Below are positions 2,843 through 8,557 of a stretch of 8,663 nucleotides of DNA, piece after piece. The number at the start of each line of letters is the position of its first letter. Position 1 is the first letter of the stretch. The notes below the pieces were generated by a model. The model saw nothing but the letters and a program-made list of their open reading frames with translations, had not been told where the DNA came from and ran no database searches. The stretch lies in the NCBI GenBank assembly GCA_016215705.1, contig JACRIR010000021.1, positions 1 to 8,663 on the forward strand, written 5' to 3'. The position numbers and the translations under genes are program-made. Source of the DNA: Candidatus Poribacteria bacterium. Lineage in GTDB: Bacteria; Abyssobacteria; SURF-5.

Positions 2843-3286
2843 TTAACGGTTCTTGTGGCGTGGCCAGATGCTGATGCGTCCGATTCTGCGGAATGGACTC
2901 AGCGCCACCGCCACTGCAAACTTCATCTTCAACCACATTCGTATTCCGAAACTGCGCGGAACTGTGCGGAATCGCGAAAGGATAATTTCTCTGCATCCGG
3001 GGCACAGGAAGCCGGTCCGCAGTCCGGAAATATTTTCGACCGCCATTGCGTTATCCAATGGAAGCGGCTTGCCGCATATGGAGCATTTCAATTTCTTGCT
3101 GCATTCCGCGCACACGCGAAAGGTCTTCTTCCCGAGGGCGAGCAGGACAATCGGTTGGCGAGAGAAGTAAATCTTTCCGCATGCGCAGCAATCGAGAAGC
3201 TGTTCGCAGAACGGAGATTTTGCATCTTCGCGGTTATAGCTCTTATCCCCATTGGCCCTATTTCGGTTTGCCTCTTCCATAATCAT
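2843..3286 (-). CDS. Small four-CxxC zinc-binding protein, unknown function
   Basis: A 147-residue protein that I do not recognise by name. It has four CxxC pairs: C33-C36, C59-C62, C68-C71 and C95-C98. The spacing is nearly symmetrical (22, 5 and 23 residues between successive pairs), as expected for two tandem treble-clef or zinc-ribbon modules, each binding one metal with four Cys. C27 and C34 are extra. The C-terminal 45 residues are strongly basic with a short hydrophobic patch (MKFAVAVAL), which may bind nucleic acid. The ATG at 3286 follows the stop of the upstream gene directly (TGAATG), and AGGA lies just before it. A second ATG two codons later (3280) is an equally good start. The abutment implies translational coupling and a joint role with the 151-residue zinc-ribbon protein. 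No shadow gene explains the regular Cys spacing, so I treat it as real. Confidence 0.7.
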   Translation of the reverse strand: MIMEEANRNRANGDKSYNREDAKSPFCEQLLDCCACGKIYFSRQPIVLLALGKKTFRVCAECSKKLKCSICGKPLPLDNAMAVENISGLRTGFLCPGCREIILSRFRTVPRSFGIRMWLKMKFAVAVALSPFRRIGRISIWPRHKNR

Positions 3287-3742
3287 TCAGTCCTGTTTTT
3301 GCGGATTCTGCATCCACTTCACGGATATGGTTCCCTCATCCTGTTTGGATCTGGGTCTGTGGCCGGGTGAGTCCTTGAATATGTCGATTCTCCCCTTGAA
3401 AGCTTGTTTGAATTGTTTGGCGATGTGGATTGCCAGAAGAGAATTGACAGTTCTTATTGTCATCTTTTGGCCGCTGCTATGTATGTCGAGAATGCGCGAA
3501 GTATGGTTGCGCGCGCGTTCGATCTCCTCCTCGTGTCTGATCATTCTCAGAATCTCACCGGAACGCGAGGCTATAACCTCTCCATCGAGGTGAACTGTTC
3601 CCAAAACTACTTTGTCCCGCATTCGCTTGCACGCAGTGCACAACGTTTTCTCAAGCACCGCAACGCCGTGTCGGTCAGTCTCGGGCGTCGACCTCCATTT
3701 CCTTCCGTCAAAAACGGCATTACATTCCGAACAAACTTTCAT
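3287..3742 (-). CDS. BCAM0308/NMD3-like zinc-ribbon protein
   Basis: A 151-residue protein. The N-terminal zinc ribbon is C4-C7 plus C35-C38, with the text CSECNAVFDGRKW before the second pair and CTACKRMRDK after it. A conserved-looking body follows: GEILRMIRHEE (62-72), ARNHTSRILDI (77-87), then a T-V-x-LA-x-x-IA stretch (about 95-109) and an A-F-x-G segment. It ends with ISVKW at 139-143. This order (C..C.AVF..GRW, C.AC.R.RD, EIL..I, RI..I, a final V.W) is what I recall of the BCAM0308 family, which is related to the ribosome-export factor NMD3. That assignment is from memory. Function is unknown; a ribosome- or RNA-linked role is only suggested by the NMD3 relation. The start is well supported: GGAGG lies 7 bases before the ATG. 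Residues after about 125 are basic and less conserved-looking. Confidence 0.72.
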   Translation of the reverse strand: MKVCSECNAVFDGRKWRSTPETDRHGVAVLEKTLCTACKRMRDKVVLGTVHLDGEVIASRSGEILRMIRHEEEIERARNHTSRILDIHSSGQKMTIRTVNSLLAIHIAKQFKQAFKGRIDIFKDSPGHRPRSKQDEGTISVKWMQNPQKQD

Positions 3743-5148: not shown

Positions 5149-5448
5149 CTATTTCGGAGACTCTTCTATTTCAGTTATCGGTTTGTCGGTGAACAGGTAA
5201 TCCTTCAGCTCTTTTGCAAATGCGGCGTCGTTTCGCCTCACCCATTCCATGAGCATGGCGGCGTGTTCCTTCTCCTCATCCCGATTATGTTTCAATACTT
5301 CCTTCAGTTCTTTGTTATCCGTCGCATCGATTCGCTGCTGATACCAGTCCATCGCCTCGAGTTCTTCTTTGATCGACATCCATGCGCGGTGAAGATCGAG
5401 GGTCAGCTTCGTAAGTCTTTCAGCCGACTCGTGGTATTGGCCTGCCAT
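5149..5448 (-). CDS. Encapsulated-ferritin-family (EncFtn) ferritin-like protein
   Basis: A 99-residue two-helix ferritin-like protein. Members assemble into a ring decamer and oxidise Fe(II) at a site formed between subunits. Compared from memory with Rhodospirillum rubrum EncFtn, the motif EELEAMDWYQQR supplies E28, E29, E31 and W35 (E31, E32, E34 and W38 there). HNRDEEKEHAAM supplies E59 and H62 (E62 and H65 there), so all ferroxidase-centre residues are kept. YLFTDKP (84-90) is also a family signature. I chose the ATG at 5448 because AAGGAGG lies just ahead of it; the frame extends 9 residues upstream to 5475 without support. The protein ends ITEIEESPK. The family's usual encapsulin-targeting tail (a short hydrophobic GSL-type motif) is absent, and no shell gene is in the window. 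It is first in an operon with the CDF exporter. Confidence 0.9.
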   Translation of the reverse strand: MAGQYHESAERLTKLTLDLHRAWMSIKEELEAMDWYQQRIDATDNKELKEVLKHNRDEEKEHAAMLMEWVRRNDAAFAKELKDYLFTDKPITEIEESPK

Positions 5449-5477
5449 TGATGTCCTCCTTCCGAAATTTTGCATAA

Positions 5478-5507: not shown

Positions 5508-5618
5508 GAGGCGGGTCAATATGATAAAATGAATAGGATGAGCGGATATGGCAGAGGATTTTCAGCGAGGTTGCAAAGGGCAGCGCTGAGGCGTCTGGAC
5601 CGTTGAGGGGGATTGATT

Positions 5619-8312
5619 GTGAACCTCAAACTTGAGCGGGAAGCCCGGATAGTTGTCATAGGGGGCGGACCTGCGGGCAGTTTCTTCGCCCATTTCATGC
5701 TCACCGCGGGGCCACGCGCGGGCATCAGGCCCGATATAACCATATATGACCGCAAATCATTTCTCGATTATGGCCCAAAAGGCTGCAATATGTGCGCGGG
5801 CGCTATCGGCCACCATCTGGTTGACCATCTCCGTCGAGAGGGTATCCCACTGCCCTCTCGTGTCGTCAGGCAGGAGATAGGGGGCTATGTTCTACACGTG
5901 CGCGACAAGAAGGTGTTTTTGCGACAGGATGAAAAACCCATTTACACGGTCTTTCGCGGCCAGAGCCCGATTCCTCAACCGGCTTCCCCCATCTCTGAAG
6001 ACGCCATCAGTTTCGACCAGTACCTGCTTGACAGCGCCGTTTCTTTGGGCGCGAAGTTTGTTCGGGATAAGGTCACACAGGTGATCTGGCCGGAGAGACC
6101 TTCCGAGAGGGTCCGACTGCTCATGAAAGACGGCGGCGACACAGAGGCGGATTTAGTAGTTGGCGCATTCGGGGTGAACACGAGCCTGCGCCACAAGTTT
6201 ATGGAGGGCTACGAGCCACCGCGCACATGGGTGGCGTGTCAGGCGGAGATGCCGGTCGACCCGGAATTCAACCGCAGGGCATTCGGGGGCAATATCCACG
6301 TCTTTGCGCTGGGAGAGTCGAGGATTCAGTTTGTCGCATTGACTCCAAAGGGTAAGTTCATTACCATTACCGCGATCGGGCCGTCCGTCAAGATGGTGGA
6401 CCTCGATGTGATTCTCCAGCGCCCCGAGTTTCGGCCTTATCTGCCGGAGGGTTGGACCATCACGTGTCATTGTCACCCACATTTCCCGGTGACTGCCGCC
6501 AAGAAGCCGTACAGGGACAGGGGGTTGCTGGTGGGTGACGCTTGCAAGGCCCGATACCTGAAGAACGGAATCGAGTCGGCATATTTCACAGCGTTGTTTG
6601 CCGCGCAGACCTGCCTGAACGTCGGCATAGGCGAGCGCGACCTTGCGAGCTACTATCGCCTCTGCCAGAAGCGATTCGGCTTCGACAACCGCTGCGGCAA
6701 AGTTCTCTTCGCGCTCCACAATGCCGCCGCGGCGCGTCATCGGATTGCCCGGGCGCACCTGATGGTTGCCGAGAGAGAGCGAATGCATGAAAGCCGGGAG
6801 AGGCAGGTTCTCGCCAATTCGCTCTGGAGCATGTTCACGGGCGACGTTCCTTACAAGCGGATATTGAGAGACTTGCTGAGCCCCAAGCTTATCATGCGAT
6901 TGTTATTTGAAACGGGGGTGTCGGCGATATTGAGGAGCGATGCGTGGGATGCTTACGCTGCAAGGAAACTCGGCGATTCGCGCGGTGGCTCAGTGGCGCT
7001 CGCACATGAGCCGCGCAGAGGCGATCGGAAGCTCCGCCTTGCACCCGGAAGTGTGATTGCAGTAATAGGCGGAGGTCCGGGCGGCGTAAGTTGCGCGATC
7101 AGGCTCTTGAAACGGGCGGACGCCGCTCATATTCCCGTGCGTGTGGTGATATTCGAGGGAAAGGACTTCGACAGGCACTATAACCAATGCGTCGGCGCGC
7201 TTTCTCCTCCGCTCGAGAGGATGCTGCGCGAGAGCCTGCGCGTCGAGTTGCCGGAAGAGTTGATCAAACGCCGAATCGAAAGTTACAAGCTTTACAGTGA
7301 CAATGCCCACGTTCTTCTTGAGGGGCCACCTGAGTCCGATCCGACATACACTGTCCGACGAGTCATGTTTGATCGCCTTATGCTCAACAAAGCCCAGGAA
7401 GCCGGCGCGGAGGTGATTCGCAGCCGAGTGACCGGCATCGAGTTTGTCAATGCGAATGGGTTGGACGAGGCGCGTATTTACAGCGAGAGCTTGTATCTGA
7501 GGGCCGACGTCGTCGTGGGCGCGTTCGGGCTCGACGAGGCAATGCTTGACCACTGGGAGCATGCGACAAAGGAGGCAGCGTTCCCGTACAAGAGGCCCCA
7601 GAAGCTGTTAAAGACTTTCGTGACCAAAATCCATACCGACCCCGAGTTCATCGAGTCTGTGCTCGGAAACACCATACATGCTTTCTTGTTGTCCGGATCA
7701 CGGGTGGAATTCGGCGCGGTCACACCCAAGGGTGATCATATCATCGTCAACATTGCGGGAAAGGACGTGCGCTCGCTCGACCTTGACGAGTTCCTGGATC
7801 GGCCCCAGGTGAGAGCCCTTCTCCCTCAATTCGATCGGCGCCTAGTCAACTTCTACGCGGGATATTTCCCGACGACTCCCGCAAGCAATCCATATGGACG
7901 GCGGTACGTTCTCGTGGGCGATGCCACGGGCTGGATGCGGCCCTTCAAGGGGAAAGGCATCAATACGGCGGTCATAAGCGGGATCAGGGCTGCCGACACC
8001 ATTTTCGAGCGTGGTTTTTCACAAAGAGCTTTTGAAGCATATGCTCGAGATTGCGCCGACCTGCGAAAGGACTATTATTATGGGCTGGCCGTCCGCGGCT
8101 TATGTCGCTTCAGCCGCTCGCTCGGGCTTTTCGATTCCGCTCTTCGCGTTGCGCAGAATGACAAACGCCTGCGAGAGATATTCTATACGGCCGTCTCAGG
8201 TGAGGATTCTTACAGGAGCGTACTGTCCCGACTTGCGGGGCCGACTACGTTCCACAAGCTTTTTATGAGTTCGGGCAGGGATTTGCTTGCGCGGCTTCTG
8301 CCGACGGCGTAG
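5619..8312 (+). CDS. Tandem fused FAD oxidoreductase (two geranylgeranyl-reductase-like modules)
   Basis: An 897-residue flavoprotein, about twice the usual 400-450 residues of the family. Numbering is from the TTG at 5613. Module 1 (about 10-445) has the FAD motif IGGGPAG (16-22), acidic D46 closing strand two, CNMCAGAI (58-65), VGAFG (183-187) and the second FAD motif LLVGDA (305-310). Module 2 (about 478-899) repeats the plan: IGGGPGG (485-491), E515, QCVGAL (525-530), VGAFG (635-639) and VLVGDA (766-771) with KGKGINTA. The halves are clearly homologous: DPEF, IH.F, TPKG, DLD..L.RP, FP.T.A..PY and the C-terminal F..G..SY/PY region align. A linker of about 35 residues joins them. Both nucleotide-binding motifs look intact, so both may bind FAD. 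Known relatives reduce isoprenoid double bonds or hydroxylate aromatics; the substrate here is unknown. GTG at 5619 is preferred (GAGGGGG 7 bases ahead); an in-frame TGA at 5604-5606 excludes earlier starts. It is divergent from the ferritin-CDF operon. Confidence 0.88.
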   Translation: MNLKLEREARIVVIGGGPAGSFFAHFMLTAGPRAGIRPDITIYDRKSFLDYGPKGCNMCAGAIGHHLVDHLRREGIPLPSRVVRQEIGGYVLHVRDKKVFLRQDEKPIYTVFRGQSPIPQPASPISEDAISFDQYLLDSAVSLGAKFVRDKVTQVIWPERPSERVRLLMKDGGDTEADLVVGAFGVNTSLRHKFMEGYEPPRTWVACQAEMPVDPEFNRRAFGGNIHVFALGESRIQFVALTPKGKFITITAIGPSVKMVDLDVILQRPEFRPYLPEGWTITCHCHPHFPVTAAKKPYRDRGLLVGDACKARYLKNGIESAYFTALFAAQTCLNVGIGERDLASYYRLCQKRFGFDNRCGKVLFALHNAAAARHRIARAHLMVAERERMHESRERQVLANSLWSMFTGDVPYKRILRDLLSPKLIMRLLFETGVSAILRSDAWDAYAARKLGDSRGGSVALAHEPRRGDRKLRLAPGSVIAVIGGGPGGVSCAIRLLKRADAAHIPVRVVIFEGKDFDRHYNQCVGALSPPLERMLRESLRVELPEELIKRRIESYKLYSDNAHVLLEGPPESDPTYTVRRVMFDRLMLNKAQEAGAEVIRSRVTGIEFVNANGLDEARIYSESLYLRADVVVGAFGLDEAMLDHWEHATKEAAFPYKRPQKLLKTFVTKIHTDPEFIESVLGNTIHAFLLSGSRVEFGAVTPKGDHIIVNIAGKDVRSLDLDEFLDRPQVRALLPQFDRRLVNFYAGYFPTTPASNPYGRRYVLVGDATGWMRPFKGKGINTAVISGIRAADTIFERGFSQRAFEAYARDCADLRKDYYYGLAVRGLCRFSRSLGLFDSALRVAQNDKRLREIFYTAVSGEDSYRSVLSRLAGPTTFHKLFMSSGRDLLARLLPTA

Positions 8313-8385: not shown

Positions 8386-8450
8386 TGTTTAGGGTTAGTC
8401 GAAATTGGACTCAAGCTTGAGGGTATAGATCAGAGAGATTCTTCGCTTCG

Positions 8451-8557
8451 CTCAGAATGACAGTGAGGGGGCTCAGAATGACAGTGAGGGGGCTCAGAAT
8501 GACAGTGAGGGGGCTCAAGAATGGCGGTGAAGGGGCTCGGGAATGACAATCGTGGGT
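8451..8557. repeat. Tandem repeat array, 21-base unit
   Basis: Three identical 21-base units (8451-8471, 8472-8492, 8493-8513), each starting CTCAGAATGACAG and ending in five G, are followed by two diverged 22-base units (8514-8535 and 8536-8557). The array grows out of a GATTCTTCGCTTCGCTCAGAATGAC sequence just before and across its start, a dispersed repeat seen in many unrelated bacterial genomes. The unit is 7 codons long, so one reverse frame stays open and yields a false repetitive peptide. There are no spacers, so it is not a CRISPR array. Confidence 0.85.

Follow-up and report, generated by a model that had tools for sequence, protein, structure and literature searches.

Two anciently diverged, non-equivalent flavin modules of the geranylgeranyl reductase superfamily fused in one chain in Ca. 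Abyssubacteria

The window analysed here, 8,663 nucleotides that make up the entire contig C48, comes from the 5.47-Mb genome of a deep-subsurface bacterium sharing its family with Ca. Abyssubacteria SURF_17. It carries a gene that fuses two flavin modules of the geranylgeranyl reductase (GGR) superfamily whose divergence is ancient; elsewhere these modules are encoded by two genes, mostly adjacent and overlapping. The product is a genuine, conserved two-module flavoprotein of this superfamily whose modules are not equivalent. Its most likely reading, to which we assign a probability of about 0.38, is a two-flavin reductase in which the second module (h2) is catalytic and the first (h1) serves as a relay or switch, a mechanism that we infer from the features described below.

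The fused gene (5619-8312, forward strand) is one uninterrupted reading frame that opens with GTG and encodes 897 residues; an alternative TTG start at 5613 would give 899, and a GAGGGG run lies just 5′ of the gene's start. The two halves align from end to end, C-terminal helices included, with 28% identity (141 bits, E 8e-42), and each holds a GxGxxG and a GD motif together with VGAFG (residues 181-185 in h1, 633-637 in h2) and VGDA (305-308 and 766-769, respectively). The initial annotation of this DNA had described two intact but diverged FAD modules in one chain that can be matched throughout, down to the helical region at the C-terminus. The single frame, the motifs in both halves and the alignment bear this out, and the motifs that it quoted (CNMCAGAI, GDACKARYLKNGI, QCVGAL and GDATGWMRPFKGKGI) are all present. 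Its description of GDACKARYLKNGI as unusual has to be withdrawn, as the motif is ordinary for its clade, with D307, R312, K315 and G317 invariant in 23 h1 proteins.

Table 1. Features of the fused gene in the window, and loci elsewhere that carry h1 without an adjoining h2 or h2 joined to a GNAT domain.
Feature	Position	Strand	Basis or context
Module 1 (h1), aa 1-440, complete FAD module, GGR/PHBH fold	5619..6938	+	AF2, structural match, separate clade 99/98
h1 GxGxxG FAD motif, aa 15-20	5661..5678	+	G15, G17, G20 invariant in 23 h1 proteins
h1 CNMC, C56 and C59	5784..5795	+	Both Cys invariant in 23/23 h1 proteins
h1 CHCHP, aa 283-287, C283 and C285	6465..6479	+	Both invariant in 23/23 h1; absent from h2
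h1 GDACKARYLKNG, aa 306-317, GD motif and GGR 'GGG' loop position	6534..6569	+	G306, D307, R312, K315, G317 invariant
Linker, aa 441-476	6939..7046	+	Disorder prediction, drift between relatives
Module 2 (h2), aa 477-897, complete FAD module, GGR/PHBH fold	7047..8309	+	Structural matches, separate clade 100/99
h2 GxGxxG FAD motif, aa 484-489	7068..7085	+	Motif present
h2 C524 (QCVGAL), GGR-type active-site Cys position	7188..7190	+	Cys in 17/17 h2 proteins
h2 RxxFD, aa 581-585	7359..7373	+	R, D invariant in h2
h2 GDATGWMRPFKGKGI, aa 767-781, GKG at GGG/GEG position of GGRs	7917..7961	+	Strongly conserved in h2
h1 without adjoining h2	L033 9303-11494		Overlaps cNMP-binding + GAF gene
h1 without adjoining h2	L112 2560-4757		Overlaps cNMP-binding + GAF gene
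h1 without adjoining h2	L035 9765-11497 (Abyssubacteria SURF_17)		Overlaps cNMP-binding gene
h1 without adjoining h2	L113 7307-10112		Overlaps gene with FHA + weak nucleotide-cyclase match
h1 without adjoining h2	L040 211-3019		Overlaps sigma-54 response regulator gene
h2-GNAT chain	L003 1516-3273		
h2-GNAT chain	L004 6161-7879		
h2-GNAT chain	L017 856-2649		
h2-GNAT chain	L032 10270-12000		
h2-GNAT chain	L114 6752-8470		
h2-GNAT chain	L115 3984-5702		

The fused gene is real and under selection. A search for other proteins with both modules in the h1-h2 order, suggested in the initial annotation, brings the number of genomes with an in-frame fusion of the same halves to eight: the window's own, the other two genomes of its family (G001 and G002, all three members being ~70-74% identical), three genomes from one other phylum (G043, G188 and G320), G056 and G210. 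Comparison of the three Abyssubacteria gives dN values of ~0.17-0.27 for either half against a near-saturated dS, above 1.6 or not computable; purifying selection thus acts on both halves, and the linker is left to drift (33-44% identity between relatives, with a 9-residue indel). It is the in-frame state in both Abyssubacteria relatives, combined with this selection, that leads us to regard the fusion as real. Nearly all source genomes are metagenome-assembled, which speaks for an artefact in which two genes were merged within a bin, but the recurrence of the same in-frame fusion in eight genomes, three of them from the Abyssubacteria family at the divergence given above, makes this very improbable. 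A stop at the linker had been named as the observation that would overturn the fusion; separate genes of this kind do occur in other phyla, whereas the window's own family keeps the fusion.

The initial annotation had proposed a tree to see whether the halves form two ancient sister clades. Such a tree, with 58 rows made up of 23 h1 modules, 27 h2 modules and an outgroup of eight proteins from the GGR family (some of which sit on long branches), places the halves in two separate, old and well-supported clades (99/98 for h1 and 100/99 for h2), which together with their 28% identity rules out a recent tandem duplication. The main fused clade, made up of the Abyssubacteria with G188, G043 and G320, emerges among the h1 and the h2 modules alike (99/96 and 97/96). 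A single fusion event for all is not favoured, since the fusion state changes three times on the tree of each half and a single fused h1 clade is weakly rejected (AU test on the h1 half, p 0.031). Where they are unfused, h1 and h2 are mostly adjacent, in the order h1-h2, and in most cases overlap by 4 or 11 bp; such pairs are found at L003 (Methylomirabilota), L007 and L009, across the greater part of the G022 phylum (G022, G307, G386, G387 and G391 among them) and in others, and in G170 the two genes lie 1 bp apart. One family holds both states: G056 is fused and G395, a bin that is 70% complete, has separate halves at 82% and 74% identity. In G395, h1 is closed by a stop codon of its own, next to the NapC-type cytochrome gene also seen in G056, and h2 lies on another contig. 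Split genes in other lineages, G395 included, indicate that the halves are able to exist as separate chains, and the adjacent or overlapping gene pairs, taken together with the fusion, argue for the partnership of the halves assumed from the outset. On the other hand, h2 need not depend on h1, since G007 (98% complete) has an h2 and no detected h1. A different arrangement is seen at L038 (8692-10183, reverse strand) in G003 (59% complete), where an h1 fragment of about residues 40-80 is immediately followed by a stretch of the h1 C-terminus, itself joined to h2; the core of h1 could have been deleted here, or the assembly could have collapsed.

AlphaFold predicts two well-folded modules (full chain pLDDT 82.6; h1 alone, by AF2, pLDDT 89.8 and pTM 0.90) and a disordered segment at residues 452-472 of the linker (pLDDT ~30); how the modules sit relative to each other is predicted with low confidence (full-chain pTM 0.53). 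Judged by these models, both modules have the GGR fold. The best solved-structure match is in either case the T. acidophilum GGR 3oz2 (362 residues each; Z 32.9, rmsd 3.0 for h1 and Z 34.0, rmsd 2.7 for h2), and h2 also matches the S. acidocaldarius GGR 3atq (Z 30.9). It is important to point out that the GGR/PHBH fold does not by itself show function because monooxygenases and halogenases share it. FixC, the ETF-quinone oxidoreductase (7koe chain C), has the same fold, is the second structural match (Z 31.4 for h1, 32.6 for h2) and provides the best PDB sequence-profile match of h2; no fixAB(X) or ferredoxin genes were seen among the window's genes, the neighbours in other genomes having been partly scanned. 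The FAD-dependent halogenases PltA, Mpy16 and Bmp2 likewise share the fold, with Z ~30 to both modules, but differ in that no halogenase-type gene context was seen.

The resemblance to GGRs (TIGR02032; the S. acidocaldarius and T. acidophilum enzymes and ChlP/BchP) extends beyond best solved-structure matches and fold to the FAD motifs, the position of the active-site cysteine, the C-terminal helical part and, in h2 only, RxxFD, which has been described as a GGR motif (PMC10821996). C59 of h1 and C524 of h2 align, each invariant in its own clade, and are matched by motif position, as opposed to direct superposition, to the active-site cysteine of GGRs, Cys47 in SaGGR (PMC6309074). Unlike GGRs, the fused protein has two modules per chain and extra invariant cysteines in h1, falls below the TIGR02032 (GG-red-SF) cutoff of 158.8 bits (h1 52.2, h2 85.4, whole chain 132.8 bits), and has no match anywhere in its 897 residues to the GGR substrate motif YxWxFP, which was present in all archaeal GGRs studied in PMC6309074. 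The loop after the GD motif, GGG or GEG/REG in GGRs, reads GKG in h2 and KNG in h1. The bacterial sterol C-24 reductase Bsr and the menaquinone reductase MenJ are comparable as bacterial GGR-family lipid C=C reductases (PMC12004948) but consist of one module each. YxWxFP is reported to be retained in Bsr, and h2 matches MenJ weakly (21 bits). A narrow search of open-licence papers found no paper on a fused or tandem GGR. With both halves below the family cutoff and devoid of YxWxFP, GGR activity of the fused protein is not established from its sequence.

The initial annotation had called both halves GGR-like and offered, as one option, sequential reductions of a polyprenyl substrate, which would make both modules catalytic and let them reduce one long polyprenyl or quinone substrate in succession. 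The FAD motifs and GGR-type cysteine position kept in both modules, and GGRs as the nearest solved folds, are consistent with this model; however, h1 has RYLKNG instead of the GxxxPxxGxG loop, along with other invariant residues, YxWxFP is missing from both halves, and two modules are unnecessary for successive reductions because single GGRs already perform them. Gene context gives no more than a weak quinone hint: in G307 a MenG/UbiE methyltransferase gene precedes h1 by 27 bp, and in both G056 and G395 a gene for a NapC-type multihaem cytochrome follows downstream. Taken together, we consider successive reductions by two catalytic modules unlikely.

The earlier suggestion that the two active sites are not equivalent has, by contrast, been strengthened. 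Four cysteines of h1 (C56, C59, C283 and C285), arranged as CNxC and CxC, are invariant in all 23 modules versus one invariant cysteine in h2; the CHCHP pair had been overlooked. In total, 36 positions, R312 and K315 as well as the four cysteines among them, are invariant across these 23 divergent h1 proteins. Such conservation weighs against h1 being a pseudo-enzyme with a merely structural FAD that stabilises or anchors h2, as does the existence of genomes that have h1 without h2. Pairs of catalytic and non-catalytic paralogues occur across many enzyme families, and the GGG-loop position of h1 is altered, but on balance the pseudo-enzyme reading appears improbable.

In the two-flavin reductase that we prefer, h1 and h2 would form a built-in heterodimer with two FADs. 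The substrate-reducing module would be h2, which keeps the GGR-type cysteine, RxxFD and the GKG loop and probably acts on a C=C bond of hydrophobic or isoprenoid type. h1 may take up electrons or sense the redox state and pass this on to h2, with a putative four-cysteine site (CNxC plus CxC) near the flavin acting as a disulfide/dithiol pair or as a metal or Fe-S centre; within the h1 model, the C56-C59 loop is predicted with comparatively low confidence (block mean 61). GGRs ranking first among solved structures for both modules count in favour of the relay, as do the quinone hints, weak as they are. Against it we count the missing YxWxFP, the sub-cutoff scores, the h2 without detected h1 in G007, the pTM of 0.53 for module placement, and a context that is not consistently metabolic, with h1 genes that have no h2 partner sitting next to regulators.

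Five h1 genes without an adjoining h2 overlap a signalling gene, at its start, by 4-19 bp (Table 1). Two are extra copies in genomes with the fused gene (G043 and G002), and the other three come from genomes in which no h2 was found (G149, G208 and G032). These observations, together with four invariant cysteines that suit a thiol or metal switch, point to the explanation that ranks next after the relay reductase: a redox-sensing signalling pair, whose FAD modules, h1 above all, would read the redox state with no product made and whose output would run via coupled regulator genes or attached acetyltransferase domains. Such domains exist, as six proteins have an h2 chain that ends in a GNAT acetyltransferase domain, and in G088 a GNAT gene of its own lies 3′ of h2. 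A GNAT as universal partner was rejected, since matches are weak and generic or lacking in Abyssubacteria, G022, G307, G056 and G210, and Abyssubacteria yielded no close homologue of the GNAT. The overlap pattern was noticed after the fact, in five cases, and four of these form one clade (100/99) and are thus not independent. Furthermore, the fused gene and the adjacent pairs are without a consistent regulator neighbour, G033, G088 and G395, which have h2 on another contig, show no signalling neighbour at h1, and h2 keeps the GGR catalytic positions. A signalling pair is therefore possible but not probable.

A broader proposal, which we regard as doubtful, would have h1 found a class of its own among GGR-fold flavoproteins, marked by a metal, Fe-S or disulfide centre of four cysteines by the flavin; it would be a portable redox module that serves cNMP/GAF, FHA or sigma-54 regulators when without h2 and the reductase h2 when paired, so that the fused chain would be an intramolecular relay. 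If the catalytic/relay heterodimer holds true, it would pair two flavins in a family known, from its characterised members, for single modules, and the fused chain would offer a fixed 1:1 complex for studying electron delivery to GGR-type enzymes. Should h1 instead be a redox sensor, candidate phyla about which little is known would have recruited the fold of a lipid reductase to signalling. Both readings are directly testable, given that split as well as fused versions exist in different species.

The window's own neighbours, an EncFtn-like ferritin, a CDF transporter, an Lrp-type domain and an SDR, leave the fused gene unexplained. Searches against PLSDB and PADLOC gave no match, and a plasmid-borne or defence-system reading was rejected. 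The EncFtn-like encapsulin-cargo ferritin (5149-5475, reverse strand; PF22277 126.6 bits, TIGR04535 123.6 bits, just below the cutoff of 125) is divergent from the fused gene, and the encapsulin shell PF04454 was not found in the window's genome or two relatives. Two adjacent small cysteine-containing proteins are encoded at 2843-3742 on the reverse strand, of which one resembles the BCAM0308 family (85 bits, cutoff 100) and the second has no family match. Towards the end of the contig, a short way downstream of the fused gene, lies a tandem repeat (8450-8548) with 4.6 copies of the 21-bp unit GCTCAGAATGACAGTGAGGGG.
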